Shown: piece by piece, positions 346-6,099 of the stretch
Layout of the letters: each line of letters starts with the position of its first letter
How positions within the stretch are numbered: position 1 is the stretch's first letter
Notes under the pieces: generated by a model
Seen by the model: the letters and a program-made list of their open reading frames with translations, nothing else
What the model was told of the DNA's origin: nothing
The model's database searches: none
Program-made: the position numbers and the translations under genes
Assembly: GCA_903870305.1 (NCBI GenBank)
Contig: CAIQCM010000051.1
Coordinates: 1 to 6,099, forward strand
From: an uncultured bacterium
Lineage (GTDB): Bacteria > Patescibacteriota > Patescibacteriia > CAIQCM01
Reading direction: 5' to 3'
Length of the DNA stretch: 6,099 nt

Positions 346-678
346 CTACTTGTTCTTCTTCTGATCACTAGCTATGTCCGATATGACCATCGCCCCATCT
401 TCGAAGGGTGGCTCGTCGTCCCCAGCGAGATCGGTGTTCTCGTCCGCGGCAATTCTCCTGTCTAGGACATCTGCGGGGTACTCACACGGCGGCTTGGGGG
501 GCGGAATCCAGCGTTCGGAACTAGGAGCATCCTGAGCCGTGATGGTTCTGGCGCCCGCCACGAATTCCGAATCGTCGAACACGTCGCCTTCTGGATACCC
601 TCCCGAAGTATCATCGTGGTGGATAGGATTCCTATTGAATGTGAATGTACCCTTGCGATTGTCGTTATTGTTTGACAT
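346..678 (-). CDS. Acidic, low-complexity hypothetical protein, 110 aa
   Basis: I do not recognise a family. The protein is rich in Asp, Glu, Asn, Pro and Ser, has one Cys (residue 65) and no hydrophobic segment long enough for a membrane helix or signal peptide. It begins with the Asn-rich MSNNNDNRKG, has a proline run near residues 59-64 and ends with the basic QKKNK. It looks largely disordered and cytoplasmic. The start at 678 is supported by AAAGGAG (687-693), 8 bases upstream. The gene is a complete single unit: promoter 781-809, a leader of about 95 bases containing a long hairpin (698-757), TAG stop, and terminator 277-330. That full set of signals is the main reason to believe in so featureless a protein. 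Function unknown. Confidence 0.8.
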   Translation of the reverse strand: MSNNNDNRKGTFTFNRNPIHHDDTSGGYPEGDVFDDSEFVAGARTITAQDAPSSERWIPPPKPPCEYPADVLDRRIAADENTDLAGDDEPPFEDGAMVISDIASDQKKNK

Positions 679-916: not shown

Positions 917-1300
917 CTACTTGGCCGGGTCAACCGTCCGTGTACGGATCTGTCTGCATGATTGTGGTGTGAGACCAACCTCGGCGAAGGCATCATCCCA
1001 GTTTCCACCGACAATCTGCACGCGGTTGTAGTTTCCGGAAATATGAACGAGATTGCCCGACCGGTCTGACTTCCAGTAGATGCCATCGGACTTGTCCTCG
1101 TTCGAGATCGACACGCCGTGCAACTCCCAGCAGCGGTACGGGCGACCATTGTTGTCCATTTGCACAACCACCCAGTCTGCCCCGAAGTTCTCAGCGCTGC
1201 AGGACGAACAACCCCGCTCCATCCCCGCACAGCTAACGAACAACAGGCAGAAAAGGTACGTTCCAATTCGTCGAGCCAGTGACTTGGTCTGTGTTTTCAT
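917..1300 (-). CDS. Predicted small lipoprotein, 127 aa, unknown function
   Basis: The N-terminus has a basic n-region (K2, K6, R10, R11), a hydrophobic stretch (residues 13-22) and a lipobox-like FVSC ending at Cys24, so a lipid-anchored exported protein is predicted; F at -3 is less usual than L. A CxxC pair follows (C31, C34), with further Cys at 57 and 115. The mature domain, roughly residues 40-110, is rich in Trp, Gly and Asn (ADWVVVQ, CWELHGV, GIYWKSD, LVHISGNYNRVQIVGG) and looks like a compact beta domain. Similar small proteins may occur in candidate-phylum genomes, but I cannot name a family. The frame stays open back to 1573. I chose ATG 1300 because AAAGGA lies 8 bases upstream and the signal peptide begins there. 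Stop is TAG. Confidence 0.8.
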   Translation of the reverse strand: MKTQTKSLARRIGTYLFCLLFVSCAGMERGCSSCSAENFGADWVVVQMDNNGRPYRCWELHGVSISNEDKSDGIYWKSDRSGNLVHISGNYNRVQIVGGNWDDAFAEVGLTPQSCRQIRTRTVDPAK

Positions 1301-1643: not shown

Positions 1644-2492
1644 TTAGCCCCAACTTTCTTTAAGATTTTGGAGTAATAGCTCGCTCAACTTTCCACCGCC
1701 GATAAGCTCGACGCCGTTCGCCGTCGCCAGTTCAATGGCCTCCTTGGTAAAACTTGAATTCGTAACGACCAAAACTTTGTTACAGTCATAGAACTTCTGC
1801 GCAGCCACGGCCTCTTGGACGGCGGCGTTGCCGACCGTACCCGAATAACATTTAGCTTGGATGACGATTCTCTGACCGTTTAGGTTGGCGACCAAATCTC
1901 CTCCTTGGTCTCCGGTCTTGCCCGTATTTTGGACGGCGTAACCCATTGCCGTAAATAAGCGGTAAAGAAGATTCTCGAAATCGGAACCGGAGAGGGTGGA
2001 GAATTTTTGAGGGAGGACGCTCACGCTTTCACGGGTTAAACGTTCCTCTTTTTCTTGTATATAGTGTCTAAGTAAAATCAGGGTGGTATCCCACTTGTTT
2101 ACGGAAAGGCGCATCCCTTTTTCGTTTAGTATCTTTCTAAGATCTTCCAATCGTTGCCAATCAAAGGCGTATCCGCGAAAAACCCAAGTCCCCTTACCTT
2201 TCTGCGCACCAAAACGATCAATGAAATTTTTTACGTACTCTTCTAAACTGTTCTGCTTAACCGCCGAAAGTAGATCGTTTGATCTCTTTTCGCGCCAGCG
2301 AGCAAGGAGTATCCAATATGTGGTAGTCGCTAAAGCAGCAACGACGATAAATATTACAAAGTACCTAACCTGTTGCCAATATGCGGCTCGATCCGAATTA
2401 TAAAGAAGAAAAATATAAATAAAATACAGCAGACCGATTCCTGCCACAATACCTACTATAGGATTTTCATTTTCTCTGCGTCTGCGAGGCAT
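1644..2492 (-). CDS. Membrane-anchored Mrr-like restriction endonuclease domain protein
   Basis: This 282-aa protein begins with a basic MPRRRRENEN and two predicted membrane helices (about 11-31 and 43-64). A soluble, partly helical linker follows, then a C-terminal Mrr-type nuclease domain (about 160-280). The domain is recognisable by FENLLYRLFTAMGY, GDQGGDL and VIQAKCY. By family knowledge of PD-(D/E)xK nucleases, the likely catalytic residues are Glu173, Asp199, Gln212 and Lys214, so the site looks intact. Mrr proteins cut foreign, often modified, DNA. The membrane anchor suggests action at the cell surface on incoming DNA, but that is inference. No methyltransferase or specificity gene adjoins it, so this is not a classical restriction-modification pair. 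An in-frame TAG lies four codons before ATG 2492, which limits the start. No Shine-Dalgarno is seen, and a -10 box ends 6 bases upstream, so the mRNA is probably leaderless. Confidence 0.88.
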   Translation of the reverse strand: MPRRRRENENPIVGIVAGIGLLYFIYIFLLYNSDRAAYWQQVRYFVIFIVVAALATTTYWILLARWREKRSNDLLSAVKQNSLEEYVKNFIDRFGAQKGKGTWVFRGYAFDWQRLEDLRKILNEKGMRLSVNKWDTTLILLRHYIQEKEERLTRESVSVLPQKFSTLSGSDFENLLYRLFTAMGYAVQNTGKTGDQGGDLVANLNGQRIVIQAKCYSGTVGNAAVQEAVAAQKFYDCNKVLVVTNSSFTKEAIELATANGVELIGGGKLSELLLQNLKESWG

Positions 2493-2498
2493 AGGATC

Positions 2499-2527
2499 AT
2501 TCTACATCTTTTTACAATTTTTGGAAA
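2499..2527 (-). promoter_or_regulatory. Promoter of the Mrr-like gene, leaderless geometry
   Basis: The minus strand carries TAGAAT (2504-2499) exactly 6 bases before ATG 2492, with TTTCCA (2527-2522, 4 of 6 matches to TTGACA) 17 bases upstream of it. Transcription would start at or next to the ATG. The weak -35 keeps confidence moderate. Confidence 0.55.
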
Positions 2528-2611
2528 AAACTATTTTTCGATCTACCATCAACATCTATCAATATTTTACCACTGAGGATTTGAAGATCAGACCCAATTT
2601 CATTATTAAAC

Positions 2612-2638
2612 AAAACCCCTCCGCTTGATACGGAAGGG
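2612..2638 (-). terminator. Intrinsic terminator of the 2667-3065 gene
   Basis: On the minus strand CCCTTCCG (2638-2631) pairs with CGGAGGGG (2623-2616), including one U-G wobble, around a 7-base loop. TTTTG follows (2615-2611). It lies 28 bases past the TAG at 2667-2669. The rest of the 2528-2611 gap shows nothing I can support. Confidence 0.8.
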
Positions 2639-2666
2639 CCGAATGAGTTTCGGGTCGGTCGAGTTG

Positions 2667-3065
2667 CTACTCCGGCAGAAAGCCGAATGAGAGTGCGATG
2701 CCCGTGCAGGCCTTTTCGGTTTCAGGCCTCTTGGTCGGGTACCAATACATTGACAGTGCGAAACAATCGCTGCTGTGGTCGTTATTGGCCGACATGCACT
2801 TGCAGGCGTGCTTGATCGCCGCGACGAGTTCCGCCTCGATCTTCCAAATTTTGCGCGGAACCGCGTTATCGGAATTCAGCTCCATCGTCTGCAGGAAACC
2901 GAGCTCCTTGACGATCATTGCCGCCACAACGCGACGGACGCGCTTCGGCATGATGTCGATCTCCGCCTGACCAATTCCCTTTTCGAGGAGATCGGCGTCG
3001 GCCTTGTCTGTCTCTGCCTTGCGAGCGGTCCTTGCGGCGATCTTGCGTCTCTCTTTTGCGTGCAT
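2667..3065 (-). CDS. Hypothetical protein with Cys/His cluster, 132 aa
   Basis: I do not recognise a family. The first 25 residues are strongly charged (MHAKERRKIAARTARKAETD) and probably helical. Residues 41-60 are basic then hydrophobic (KRVRRVVAAMIVKELGF). The C-terminal half carries H86, C88, C90, H97, C101 and C120, a spacing that could bind a metal, although the order matches no zinc motif I know. There is no signal peptide. The start at ATG 3065 is supported by AAGGA 8 bases upstream and the stop is TAG. The gene has its own promoter (3105-3133) and terminator (2612-2638), the same architecture as the 346-678 and 917-1300 genes. An open frame on the opposite strand (2775-3104) lacks such signals and would read through this gene's ribosome binding site. 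Confidence 0.75.
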   Translation of the reverse strand: MHAKERRKIAARTARKAETDKADADLLEKGIGQAEIDIMPKRVRRVVAAMIVKELGFLQTMELNSDNAVPRKIWKIEAELVAAIKHACKCMSANNDHSSDCFALSMYWYPTKRPETEKACTGIALSFGFLPE

Positions 3066-3073
3066 GGTTCTTG

Positions 3074-3078
3074 TCCTT
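3074..3078 (-). promoter_or_regulatory. Shine-Dalgarno for the 2667-3065 gene
   Basis: AAGGA on the minus strand (3078-3074), preceded by a run of A, lies 8 bases before ATG 3065 and supports that start. Confidence 0.7.
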
Positions 3079-3104
3079 TTTTGAGGGTTGAAATAACTGG
3101 CTGA

Positions 3105-3133
3105 AAATTAGCGCGAACGCGAAAAAATGTCAA
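3105..3133 (-). promoter_or_regulatory. Sigma-70-type promoter of the 2667-3065 gene
   Basis: The minus strand shows TTGACA (3133-3128), 17 bases and TAATTT (3110-3105). Predicted transcription starts near 3098 with a leader of about 33 bases. It shares CGTATCTTGACA with the promoter at 781-809 and lies back to back with the + strand promoter at 3156-3164. Confidence 0.75.
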
Positions 3134-3155
3134 GATACGCCAGTAATCACGATAA

Positions 3156-3164
3156 TGCTATAAT
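3156..3164 (+). promoter_or_regulatory. Extended -10 promoter of the lytic transglycosylase gene, leaderless
   Basis: TGCTATAAT is a perfect extended -10 element (TGn plus TATAAT). It ends 6 bases before ATG 3171, so transcription should begin at the start codon. No good -35 is present at 16-18 bases, which extended -10 promoters can tolerate. Confidence 0.7.
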
Positions 3165-3170
3165 GGCGGC

Positions 3171-4526
3171 ATGAATGATTATTCTCGACTTCGCTCGAAT
3201 AATATAAGCGCTTGTATTTGCGTATTGCTCGCGATTGCGATGGCGTCTTTTGGCGCGTTTCCGGCGCGCGCACAAACCACGCTCGATCAGGTGGCGGCCG
3301 AACAGAACCAATTGCAGCAGCAGCTTGCAGCGCTCAACAAACAAATAAGCGATTACCAAAGCCAGCTTACCAAGATCAAGGGGCAGAAAAACACCCTGGT
3401 CAACAAGATCAGTCAGTTGCAAAAACAACAAGCGCTTGTTACCGCGCAGATCAAGATATCGTCGCTAACGATCAATGACATCGACGAACAAGAGGCGGTG
3501 CTCCAGATTTCGATCGATCTGAATAAGAAAAAACTTGACGGATTGAAAACCGAAATGGCCGGTCTTATTGTGAACATCAATATTCGCGATCAACGTTCAT
3601 TCATCGAGCTGCTGCTCGTTAGCGACAACTTGGCGCAAGCGTTCACCGAACGCGCCGATACCGATCGGTTGGTAAAAGATCTCGGCGATATCTTCAAACA
3701 AAGCCGGCAAACGGAAACCGACCTCGCAACGGCCATGCAAACGATCTCGGTAAAACGAGACGTCGAGAATAACCTGCTCGCGATCAAATCGCTTCAAGAA
3801 AAACAGCTGACCGGTTCGGTGAGCGAACAAAGCACGCTGCTTACTCAAACCAAAGGCAAGGAAAGTAAGTATCAAGCGAACCTAAAAAGTTCACAGGCGG
3901 AAGTGGCCGCGATCAAGAGCCGCTTATACCAATTGCTTGAGGTTAGCGCGCAGATAACCTTTGGCCAGGCGGTGGCAATCGCGCAATGGGCTTCGGCGCA
4001 AACCGGCGTGCGCGCGGCTTTCCTCTTGGCAATCCTCACTCAAGAATCAAGCTTGGGAAAAAATGTCGGCACCTGCAACCGCGCGGGTGACCCGCCGTCA
4101 AAAAGCTGGAAGGTTGTGATGAAACCCGACCGCGACCAAGTTCCATTTCAAACGATCACAACGGAACTTGGCATGAACATAAACACCACCCCTGTCTCCT
4201 GCCCGATGAAAGACAAGAGCGGCAACCAAATAGGTTGGGGCGGCGCCATGGGTCCGGCGCAATTCATCCCCTCGACCTGGATGGGCTACCGCGCCAAGGT
4301 GGCGGCCATAACCGGCAAGGCCGCGAACCCCTGGGACATCCGCGACGCATTCCTTGCCGCCGCGATAAAACTAAGGGACGGCGGCGCCGGCTCACAATCC
4401 GGCGAATGGGCGGCGGCCATGAAATATTTTTCCGGCGGCACCAACCCGGCCTATCGCTTTTACGGCGACAACGTCGTCGCCACCGCCGCACAGTACGCGA
4501 GCGACATTGCGAAGTTGAATCAATAA
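3171..4526 (+). CDS. Exported coiled-coil lytic murein transglycosylase
   Basis: This 451-aa protein has a Sec signal peptide (positive R6/R8, hydrophobic 13-30, likely cleavage after ARA at 34). A long Gln/Lys-rich coiled coil spans about 37-255 and resembles the coils of PcsB/CwlO/EnvC-type cell-wall proteins, including SFIELLLVSDNLAQAF (143-158). The C-terminal lytic transglycosylase domain spans about 263-450. Glu292 in AILTQESSLG is the likely catalytic acid. GGAMGPAQFIPSTW (357-370) and WDIRDAFLAAAIKLRDGG (388-405) match the MltB/SLT fold as I know it. It should cleave peptidoglycan glycan strands outside the membrane, perhaps at division. Cys302 and Cys344 lie in an insertion between catalytic motifs and could form a disulfide. 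An in-frame TAA at 3153 and no other start codon before the signal peptide fix ATG 3171. No Shine-Dalgarno precedes it. Confidence 0.9.
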   Translation: MNDYSRLRSNNISACICVLLAIAMASFGAFPARAQTTLDQVAAEQNQLQQQLAALNKQISDYQSQLTKIKGQKNTLVNKISQLQKQQALVTAQIKISSLTINDIDEQEAVLQISIDLNKKKLDGLKTEMAGLIVNINIRDQRSFIELLLVSDNLAQAFTERADTDRLVKDLGDIFKQSRQTETDLATAMQTISVKRDVENNLLAIKSLQEKQLTGSVSEQSTLLTQTKGKESKYQANLKSSQAEVAAIKSRLYQLLEVSAQITFGQAVAIAQWASAQTGVRAAFLLAILTQESSLGKNVGTCNRAGDPPSKSWKVVMKPDRDQVPFQTITTELGMNINTTPVSCPMKDKSGNQIGWGGAMGPAQFIPSTWMGYRAKVAAITGKAANPWDIRDAFLAAAIKLRDGGAGSQSGEWAAAMKYFSGGTNPAYRFYGDNVVATAAQYASDIAKLNQ

Positions 4527-4552
4527 CAACCGTTTTTTATCACAACCTAATT

Positions 4553-4656
4553 TGTCATACCGGCGAAAGCCGGTATCCAGCCCATCTGCGCCGCATCTGC
4601 TTATTTAGCACATTGTTGCTTTCTAGCTGGATCCCGTGTCCCGGCACGGGATGACA
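4553..4656. repeat. REP-like inverted pair (possible MITE)
   Basis: Two palindromic units lie in inverted orientation. Unit 1 (4553-4581) is TGTCAT...ATCCAGC and contains ATACCGGC-GAAA-GCCGGTAT. Unit 2 (4626-4656) is GCTGGAT...ATGACA and contains ATCCCGTG-TCCCGG-CACGGGAT. The outer motifs are exact reverse complements, while the hairpin stems differ in sequence but keep perfect pairing. This GTCAT-hairpin-ATCCAG form resembles widespread bacterial REP-like repeats. It sits between two convergent genes and shows no open frame for a transposase. Confidence 0.7.
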
Positions 4657-4659
4657 TAC

Positions 4660-4708
4660 AATAAACACAAAACCGGTCCGAGGGCATCGGGCCGGTTTTG
4701 TGTTTATT
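4660..4708. terminator. Strong bidirectional terminator between convergent genes
   Basis: Bases 4660-4676 and 4692-4708 form a perfect 17-bp stem, with CCGG at the loop end and AT-rich bases below. CCGA/TCGG can pair further within the 15-base loop. It begins 8 bases past the stop of the 4716-5243 gene and also lies downstream of the transglycosylase gene. Confidence 0.85.
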
Positions 4709-4715
4709 GAGTTGT

Positions 4716-5243
4716 TTATTCCTTTTCAGCGATCCTGTTGTTCTGGTTGTCGCTGGCCGCTTCCATCTTCTTGAACTCATCCCTTAATTCGGCAAGCTCT
4801 TCGTGCACATCGGCGTCCCCAAGAGCGACTTTCTTGTATATATTATTACTGTTTTTGTCGGCGCCTATTTTCTGTTCGCCAACGATGATCCTTTTTGTCT
4901 CTTTCTTACCGTTTTCTTCAAAAGTGACATTAGCAACAAGTGGACTATTTTTTTCTTTTCTTTCAAAAGAAACGGTGTATTGATTTTCTGTGATCGTTCC
5001 GGTTTTTTCATCACGACCCTCAGTCGCTTTGTCCAACGCAAACTGGATCGCGCCGGCCATCCCAGACAGCTCGTGCCTTTCCACTACCGCCGATCGATCA
5101 TCGGTCTTATGATGCTTCGTCGACGCTTCGGCCGTATTATGCAACGCGCCTTCAGCAGTAACGGCGGCCGCTACCGCCGCGGCGACCTTTGCTTCTTTAG
5201 AACCGAAAACCTTTCCAAAAATACCCATACGTTTTATAAACAT
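4716..5243 (-). CDS. Hypothetical protein, 175 aa, alanine-rich N-terminus
   Basis: I do not recognise a family. Residues 1-15 are basic and aromatic (MFIKRMGIFGKVFG), followed by an Ala/Val stretch (17-30) that is too short and weak for a confident membrane helix. Residues 31-60 are His-rich and polar. Residues 82-140 look like a beta meander of charged strands (TGTITENQYTVSFERK, LVANVTFEENGKKETKRIIV). Residues 146-165 (VHEELAELRDEFKKMEAASD) look like a coiled coil. A cytoplasmic or membrane-edge role is possible. There is no Shine-Dalgarno for ATG 5243 or for the alternative ATG 5228 (Met6). A four-codon mini-ORF (5243-5257) ends in TAATG overlapping the 5243 start, which suggests coupled re-initiation. 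Promoter 5264-5292, terminator 4660-4708, stop TAA. Confidence 0.8.
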   Translation of the reverse strand: MFIKRMGIFGKVFGSKEAKVAAAVAAAVTAEGALHNTAEASTKHHKTDDRSAVVERHELSGMAGAIQFALDKATEGRDEKTGTITENQYTVSFERKEKNSPLVANVTFEENGKKETKRIIVGEQKIGADKNSNNIYKKVALGDADVHEELAELRDEFKKMEAASDNQNNRIAEKE

Positions 5244-5257
5244 TACGAGTTAATCAT
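5243..5257 (-). CDS. Four-codon leaderless mini-ORF (MINS) coupled to the downstream gene
   Basis: The minus strand reads ATG ATT AAC TCG TAA from 5257. The -10 box TATCAT ends exactly 6 bases before this ATG, so it is the expected first codon of the transcript. Its stop TAA shares one base with the ATG of the 175-aa gene (TAATG). The proposed role is to load a ribosome on a leaderless end and hand it to the main frame by termination-reinitiation. It is too short to identify by homology and could be coincidence. Confidence 0.4.
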   Translation of the reverse strand: MINS

Positions 5258-5263
5258 GTTAAA

Positions 5264-5292
5264 ATGATACCATTTTTTCGGACTTTTGTCAA
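5264..5292 (-). promoter_or_regulatory. Sigma-70-type promoter of the 4716-5243 gene
   Basis: TTGACA (5292-5287), 17 bases and TATCAT (5269-5264) on the minus strand. The predicted start is near 5257. The -35 lies in an 18-bp perfect palindrome (5284-5301). Confidence 0.8.
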
Positions 5293-5344: not shown

Positions 5345-5360
5345 ACACAACATCTTGTGT
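5345..5360. promoter_or_regulatory. NrdR box 1 upstream of nrdD
   Basis: ACACAACATCTTGTGT is a 16-bp palindrome (6-bp perfect arms) and matches the NrdR-box consensus acaCwAtATaTwGtgt at 14 of 16 positions. NrdR is the ATP/dATP-sensing repressor of ribonucleotide reductase genes. Its sites normally occur in pairs, as here with 5377-5392. Confidence 0.75.
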
Positions 5361-5376
5361 ATAACTTTTTAAAGCA

Positions 5377-5392
5377 CCCCTATATGTAGGGT
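5377..5392. promoter_or_regulatory. NrdR box 2 upstream of nrdD
   Basis: CCCCTATATGTAGGGT matches the NrdR consensus at 12 of 16 positions and has CCCTA/TAGGG arms. Its centre is 32 bp from that of box 1, which is three helical turns and the known tandem spacing. It ends 11 bases before the -35 of the nrdD promoter. Confidence 0.65.
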
Positions 5393-5403: not shown

Positions 5404-5432
5404 TTGGCATGGTTAAGAAAGGGCTGTATAGT
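5404..5432 (+). promoter_or_regulatory. Promoter of nrdD
   Basis: TTGGCA (5404-5409) and TATAGT (5427-5432) each match consensus at 5 of 6 positions with a 17-base spacer. Transcription should begin near 5439, giving an A-rich leader of about 35 bases with no Shine-Dalgarno. An 8-bp dyad (AAGGGCTG 5419-5426, CAGCCCTT 5440-5447) straddles the -10. Confidence 0.65.
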
Positions 5433-5473
5433 GGGTGGGCAGCCCTTAATTCAAAAATATAAAAACGAACGCT

Positions 5474-6099
5474 ATGTCCGAACTCATGGTCGTCACCCGC
5501 GAAGGCGAAAAGGTCCCTTTTGACAAAGAAAGGATCGTTATTGCCGTTACCAAAGCCGCCGAAGCGACCCAGGAGTTCAACGCGACCGAAGCGCGAAAAA
5601 TAGCCGAAATGGCGGCGCACTTTGTTTCCAAATCGAAAAAGATGGCGGAATCGATCGCCGTTGAAGAAATCCAGGACATTGTCGAGTTCACGCTCATGAG
5701 TTCGGGGCATTTTAAGACCGCTCGCGCCTATATCGTTTACCGCGAAAAGCGCGCCCAGTCGCGCGCCGCCGGCGCCGTGGCCGTTGAGGTGGAAAAGACG
5801 ATCAATGAATATCTTCAGCAATCCGACTGGCGAGTACATGAAAACGCTAACCAAAGCTACTCGCTCGGAGGCATGATCCTCAACACATCCGGCAAGCTAA
5901 CGGCCAACTACTGGCTTCACCATGTCTATCCCAAAGAGGTTCGCGAAGCTCATCTGGACGCCGATTTTCACATCCATGACCTGAGCATGTTCTCGGGTTA
6001 CTGCGCCGGCTGGTCGCTCCGCCAGCTTTTAGAAGAGGGTTTTAACGGCGTCCCAGGCAAGGTTGAATCGGCCCCGCCCAAACACTTGGAAACCGCCGT
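5474..6099 (+). CDS. nrdD: Anaerobic (class III) ribonucleoside-triphosphate reductase, N-terminal part
   Basis: The gene continues past the window; 208 codons are visible, less than half of a typical NrdD. Residues 1-95 are an ATP-cone, the allosteric activity domain (VVTREGEKVPFDKERI, VEEIQDIVEFTLMSSGHFKTARAYIVYREKR). The catalytic domain begins about residue 105: VHENANQSYSLGGM (121-134), NYWLHHVYPKEVREAHLDAD (145-164) and FHIHDLSMFSGYCAGWSL (165-182). Cys177 in GYCAG is the likely first active-site cysteine. NrdD reduces ribonucleoside triphosphates to deoxy forms with a glycyl radical made by the NrdG activase. The glycyl-radical motif and nrdG would lie beyond the right edge. The paired NrdR boxes upstream fit control by nucleotide level. 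The first ATG (5474) is used; Met5 (5486) is an alternative, and neither has a Shine-Dalgarno. Confidence 0.92.
   Translation, partial: MSELMVVTREGEKVPFDKERIVIAVTKAAEATQEFNATEARKIAEMAAHFVSKSKKMAESIAVEEIQDIVEFTLMSSGHFKTARAYIVYREKRAQSRAAGAVAVEVEKTINEYLQQSDWRVHENANQSYSLGGMILNTSGKLTANYWLHHVYPKEVREAHLDADFHIHDLSMFSGYCAGWSLRQLLEEGFNGVPGKVESAPPKHLETA

Follow-up and report, generated by a model that had tools for sequence, protein, structure and literature searches.

Two genes in a 6,099-nucleotide (nt) contig of an uncultured bacterium, which we refer to as the window (contig C51 of an assembly of 947,774 bases in 160 contigs), carry a promoter-like −10 box placed 6 bases upstream of the start codon. 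We predict, with a probability of about 80%, that transcripts of the genes at ATG 3171 (plus strand) and ATG 2492 (minus strand) start at the A of the ATG and are leaderless messenger RNAs (mRNAs) free of a Shine–Dalgarno (SD) sequence. Distant relatives repeat this box-6-ATG geometry ahead of the 3171 gene, and it is more frequent than its controls in the genome, the class and the phylum. Leaderless expression is known from Deinococcus-Thermus and Actinobacteria; the mode proposed here is of that known kind, and what is new is how widely it would extend in Patescibacteria. In the proposed mechanism, a sigma-70-type polymerase would recognise an extended −10 element and start the transcript on the A of the ATG, after which the ribosome would take the 5′-terminal AUG directly, as PMC12340547 recounts for established leaderless mRNAs. 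Each of the three steps, namely the box acting as the −10 element in the cell, a transcription start (+1) at the A of the ATG and leaderless translation, is likely from the sequence.

The genome is placed with the Patescibacteria because relatives of the protein encoded at 3171–4526 come mostly from that group. Eight named loci encode such relatives, and seven of them lie in metagenome-assembled genomes with patescibacterial names (Doudnabacteria (two), Komeilibacteria, Uhrbacteria, Magasanikbacteria, Yanofskybacteria and ‘Patescibacteria group’). The nearest relative, L021 (‘bacterium isolate nzgw356’), is 81% identical. No 16S gene was found in the assembly itself, and an Rfam scan of the window gave no match.

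A preliminary description of the window had proposed three ATGs lying exactly 6 bases after a −10 box, all of them leaderless. The geometry is present at all three, but the third ATG, at 5257, is not the start of the gene listed there; the leaderless reading is supported at 3171 by relatives, is plausible at 2492 from the pattern, and is not supported at 5257, as set out below. The features of the first two sites are as follows.

3156–3173, plus strand: site 2, predicted leaderless start, with TGC-TATAAT at 3156–3164, spacer GGCGGC and ATG at 3171 (sequence and relatives)
3171–4526, plus strand: site 2 gene, 451 amino acids (aa), likely exported, with a signal-like N-terminus (by eye), a coiled coil and a weak transglycosylase-like end
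2490–2504, minus strand: site 1, predicted leaderless start, with TAGAAT at 2504–2499, spacer GATCCT and ATG at 2492–2490 (sequence)
1644–2492, minus strand: site 1 gene, restriction endonuclease-like (Mrr_cat; Pfam PF04471, E 1.3e-29)

At site 2, an in-frame TAA just upstream, at 3153, fixes ATG 3171 as the start. A TANNNT box lies 6 nt before it and no SD sequence precedes it, as expected of leaderless genes with a −10 element adjacent to the open reading frame (ORF). We compared 33 distinct sequences, comprising the window, the eight named loci and 24 other loci, where the proteins of all the others share 28–81% identity with that of the window; an extended −10 element was scored as TGn followed by at least five of the six TATAAT bases. 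Such an element precedes the first ATG at 4–11 nt in 16 of the 33 sequences, compared with 1 of 33 for all other distances from 0 to 79 nt taken together. When any candidate ATG was allowed, 17 of 33 had it at 6–9 nt (6 nt in eight, 7 in three, 8 in two and 9 in four). An SD tetramer was seen before the gene in one of the 33 relatives and not in the window. Since relatives keep the geometry, there is strong sequence support for predicting that 3171 is leaderless. The sequence before the gene in G001, the one other genome of the same order in our collection, is identical to that of L021. All Pfam matches to the 3171 protein fall under the curated cut-offs (SLT_2, E 5e-4). Between the gene and its terminator lies a stretch of about 104 bases (4553–4656) that starts TGTCATACCGGCG and ends GGGATGACA; it is missing from L021 and resembles a small mobile inverted-repeat element.

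ATG 2492 likewise combines a box at 6 nt with an in-frame stop upstream and no SD sequence. The stop, a TAG four codons before the ATG, belongs to the −10 box itself, and a weak −35 element, TTTCCA, sits 17 nt upstream of the box (promoter scan). From this pattern alone, a leaderless start of the 2492 gene is plausible. Two earlier observations were thus borne out: the in-frame stops before 2492 and 3171 are present, and none of the tetramers GGAG, AGGA and GAGG is seen just upstream of any of the three ATGs.

To place these sites in their genome, we write d for the number of nucleotides between −10 box and ATG, call TGNTATAAT-Nd-ATG the strict pattern and TG.TA...T the loose one. An own-genome sample of 81 of the 160 contigs (450,137 of 947,774 bases) yielded 327 ORFs of at least 100 aa with a usable first ATG, that is, the earliest ATG in frame beyond the upstream stop; as this is often not the true start, the figures obtained are rough. 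A box matching five of six positions precedes the first ATG at d6 in 16 of the 327, with 4 at d7 and 10 at d8; spacings d12–31 average 2.6 and never exceed 5 (Poisson 2e-8 for d6). By the same crude rule, a box stands at spacing 5–8 before 32 of 327 first ATGs and an SD tetramer before 36 of 327. The preliminary description had suggested that leaderless initiation may be a standard mode in this organism; the counts support it as one of several modes. Leaderless initiation is thus likely to be an ordinary mode here, beside SD genes, in an organism that likely mixes leaderless, SD and leadered non-SD genes.

Across the whole own genome, the strict pattern occurs 5, 1, 5 and 1 times at d6, d7, d8 and d14, and the reversed pattern not at all. 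Nine of the 12 loose-pattern d6 sites in the own-genome sample open ORFs of at least 50 aa, 3171 included, and seven of the eight others match Pfam families: integrase, DNA alkylation repair, two glycosyltransferases, ABC ATPase, methionyl-tRNA synthetase and glycosyl hydrolase family 1. The last of these sites (L058) is an internal ATG, preceded by 225 open codons and matching from profile position 283 of 453. At d8 there are 12 such ORFs, and six of the ten scanned match families. Start calling by codon usage shifted the start of the 3171 gene to 3240 and left no more than 172 genes of the own genome, and was therefore dropped in favour of the first-ATG rule; even this approach counted four boxes each at d6 and d8, compared with 0–2 elsewhere. 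In a second genome, G073, the loose pattern occurs 15, 5 and 14 times at d6, d7 and d8 against an expectation of 3.2 (standard deviation (s.d.) 1.6, maximum 8).

The signal extends to the window’s class. In 95 genomes the strict pattern was counted 455, 204, 279 and 169 times at d6, d7, d8 and d14, and the reversed pattern 48, 76, 45 and 74 times. Of these controls, d14 is the fairer, because promoters lie upstream of genes anyway. The class matches include repeats, with one string of G080 occurring nine times at d6 and one of G054 five times at d8; several copies of these box-ATG strings lie near contig ends, like a repeated mobile gene with its own ORF-adjacent promoter. We also took one stretch from each of 40 other class genomes (740,241 bases) and pooled them with the own genome and G073: the strict pattern occurs seven times at d6 and 0–3 times at every other spacing from 0 to 25, and six of the seven d6 sites head ORFs of at least 50 aa. 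As a negative control, 200 kb of Escherichia coli K-12 gave 1, 3 and 2 matches at d6–8 against 4.0, 3.4 and 1.8 with permuted codons, with no peak.

Phylum-wide, TGNTATAAT-N6-ATG was found 1444 times in 192 genomes against 107 for the reversed pattern, with at least one match in 174 genomes and a median of 5; the 180 genomes outside the window’s class contribute 1406 at d6 against 96 reversed. The highest d6 counts are those of G388 (100), G433 (86), G438 (36) and G443 (32). G388 and G433 belong to one genus of family f98, with genomes of about 0.7 Mb and one reversed match each; their d6 counts may include repeats, and their d7 spacers are diverse among the matches listed. Other members of the family have only 3, 4 and 12 matches at d6. 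Among 13 genomes picked for high d6 counts, G388, G433 and G443 have 29, 29 and 23 matches at d7 and 6, 3 and 0 at d14. We consider it probable, with appreciable room for doubt, that leaderless initiation from an extended −10 element placed directly at the start codon is a standard arrangement throughout Patescibacteria, conserved ahead of individual genes class-wide, reaching 100 and 86 perfect sites in G388 and G433 and, in the window’s class, favouring leaders of 0 or 2 nt over 1 nt.

The boxes might be true promoters whose transcripts begin a few bases off the ATG, leaving leaders of 1–4 nt. The spread of spacings from 6 to 9 nt among the 3171 relatives fits this, as does the class count at d8, which exceeds that at d14; at d8, moreover, a purine occupies spacer position 7 in 70% and a pyrimidine position 6 in 66%, as would fit a +1 two bases upstream of the ATG there. 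Spacing 6 is nevertheless the clear class maximum, and the usual distance from −10 to +1 then lands on the ATG, so we regard short leaders as an unlikely account of the two sites. A pyrimidine is often found at the base before +1, and would therefore be expected often ahead of the ATG if +1 is its A. Among 128 distinct d6 spacers, drawn from 142 rows of the 455 class matches, a pyrimidine precedes the ATG in 90%, compared with 39–48% at inner positions and 59% at d7, and a C in 38%, compared with 25% of first ATGs in the own genome and 18% in the 40-genome sample.

Class-wide, d6 and d8 are raised and d7 hardly so (204 against 169 at d14, Wilcoxon 0.15; d8 exceeds d7, 0.004), which would fit a preference for leaders of 0 and 2 nt over 1 nt. 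The f98 genomes, rich in d7 matches (29, 29, 23), and the 3171 relatives that also use 7 and 9 nt run counter to such a preference.

A second alternative takes the boxes not as promoters but as AT-rich stretches that keep the start unstructured or bind ribosomal protein S1, with the real promoters further upstream. Start regions are AT-rich in many bacteria, and Nakagawa et al. 2017, where they treat such bias, leave S1 sites open as a cause (PMC5397173). The signal seen here is a spaced and oriented TGn-TATAAT rather than mere AT richness, however, and the reversed pattern of the same composition has 48 class matches at d6 against 455; furthermore, 32 of the 33 relatives have no other extended −10 element within 79 nt upstream. 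We therefore hold this alternative to be very improbable.

Several results weigh against the leaderless reading. Among the 3171 relatives, 16 of 33 have no extended −10 element at 6–9 nt even when any candidate ATG is allowed; two of these carry it elsewhere, L083 at 11 nt and L076 at 31 nt, and the L076 gene is probably leadered. Relatives of the 2492 protein were not found in the DNA of the genomes compared, which leaves site 1 without comparative support. A count of boxes before ATGs, which the preliminary description had named as a genome-wide check, came out positive at d6 by gene in the own-genome sample, as given above, but without gene calls plain TA...T shows no excess there (114 against 103, s.d. 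13). Likewise without gene calls, the loose pattern occurs 12, 5 and 19 times at d6, d7 and d8 in that sample, and d6 alone lies inside the null range (6.4, s.d. 3.2, maximum 15, d15–74). In the 40 class stretches it occurs 26, 26 and 35 times at d6–8 over a background of about 25, with no clear peak. Finally, first ATGs generally follow a pyrimidine, in 75% of cases in the own genome and 80% in the 40-genome sample, which makes the 90% at d6 less telling.

At the third site, the promoter is conserved and the ATG is not.

5257–5292, minus strand: site 3 promoter, TTGACA-17-TATCAT (5292–5264) with TG before the −10 box and spacer TTTAAC; predicted +1 at 5257
5243–5257, minus strand: four-codon frame ATG ATT AAC TCG TAA at the predicted +1 (sequence); likely not a gene start
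4716–5228, minus strand: gene following site 3, listed with its ORF start at 5243; a leader of about 29 nt lacking an SD is predicted

With 11 of 12 consensus bases, this promoter has the best score in the window (promoter scan). ATG 5257 encodes M-I-N-S-stop, out of frame with the 175-aa ORF, and its TAA overlaps ATG 5243. In the sister species L021 the equivalent reads TTGACA-17-TATCAT-TTTAAC-ATC, so that promoter and predicted +1 A are kept while the ATG is replaced by ATC; ATG 5243 has no counterpart there, and ATG GGT at 5228 aligns with ATG GGC of L021. The four-codon frame and this ATC led us to set aside ATG 5257 as a leaderless gene start. By this alignment the gene more likely starts at 5228, with some 29 nt of leader and no SD ahead of it. 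The gene products of the two species are strongly diverged and were not connected by tblastn; position, promoter and N-terminus are the grounds for considering them related. The site might instead be a leaderless upstream frame whose TAATG overlap feeds ribosomes to the gene by coupled restart. The anatomy is exact, with a strong promoter, an ATG at the predicted +1 and the overlap, but L021 keeps the promoter and the A at +1 without ATG 5257 or ATG 5243, and aligns at 5228; although a single sister sequence stands behind this case, we set coupled restart aside on that alignment as improbable.

The predicted starts resemble the ORF-adjacent −10 motif of Deinococcus-Thermus, whose box was demonstrated to function as a −10 region (Zhong et al. 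2025, PMC12340547): in the sections concerned, TANNNT lies about 6–7 bp before the ORF, the mRNA is leaderless and SD genes exist alongside. Unlike that case, ours concerns another phylum; the share of such genes is about one third in D. radiodurans and smaller here by our crude count, our search pattern includes the TGn extension, and the present sites are known from sequence alone. Zheng et al. 2011 (PMC3160421), in the relevant parts, report leaderless genes with a TA-like signal, its first T about 12 bp upstream, in 207 of 953 genomes, and describe a TG ahead of the box, as here, for low-GC genomes; the groups named in those parts exclude Patescibacteria, and one genome is called unclassified. 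The GeneMarkS-2 classes of leaderless transcription, as told in the pertinent passages of StartLink (PMC9581028), come there without mention of the Candidate Phyla Radiation (CPR) or Patescibacteria. In the available text of four further papers (PMC12641178, PMC6851277, PMC10434106 and PMC7441243), ‘leaderless’ occurs only in references (three) or in a remark on YchF (one). Among the titles returned by a literature search that left most subscription journals outside, none reports leaderless genes in Patescibacteria, CPR, Saccharibacteria or Parcubacteria.

The Patescibacteria form a very large group of bacteria with small genomes, most of them uncultured. Should leaderless genes be common among them, transcription starts could be read from sequence and start-codon annotation corrected, and direct initiation on a 5′-terminal AUG would become testable in the group. 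The finding would also add a phylum to the debate on whether leaderless initiation is ancient in bacteria.

Other gene starts in the window provide contrasts.

346–678, minus strand: gene with GGAG 8 nt before ATG 678 (sequence; no Pfam family)
917–1300, minus strand: small lipoprotein-like gene (by eye) with AGGA 8 nt before ATG 1300 (sequence; no Pfam family)
2667–3065, minus strand: gene with AGGA 8 nt before ATG 3065 (sequence; no Pfam family)
5404–6097, plus strand: nrdD with its promoter, start 5474, cut by the window end (NRDD and ATP-cone; promoter scan)

All seven 16S genes found in a search of ten relatives end in the anti-SD sequence CACCTCC, and together with the three SD genes this indicates that SD initiation coexists with the leaderless mode. 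The nrdD gene has a promoter TTGGCA-17-TATAGT (5404–5432) and a leader of about 35 nt without SD, conserved in L021; nothing similar to this stretch was found in E. coli. Before it lie two palindromes, ACACAACATCTTGTGT and CACCCCTATATGTAGGG, 30 bases apart (5345–5391 in the window, 4051–4097 in L021), which we take to be candidate NrdR boxes and which are conserved in the sister species.

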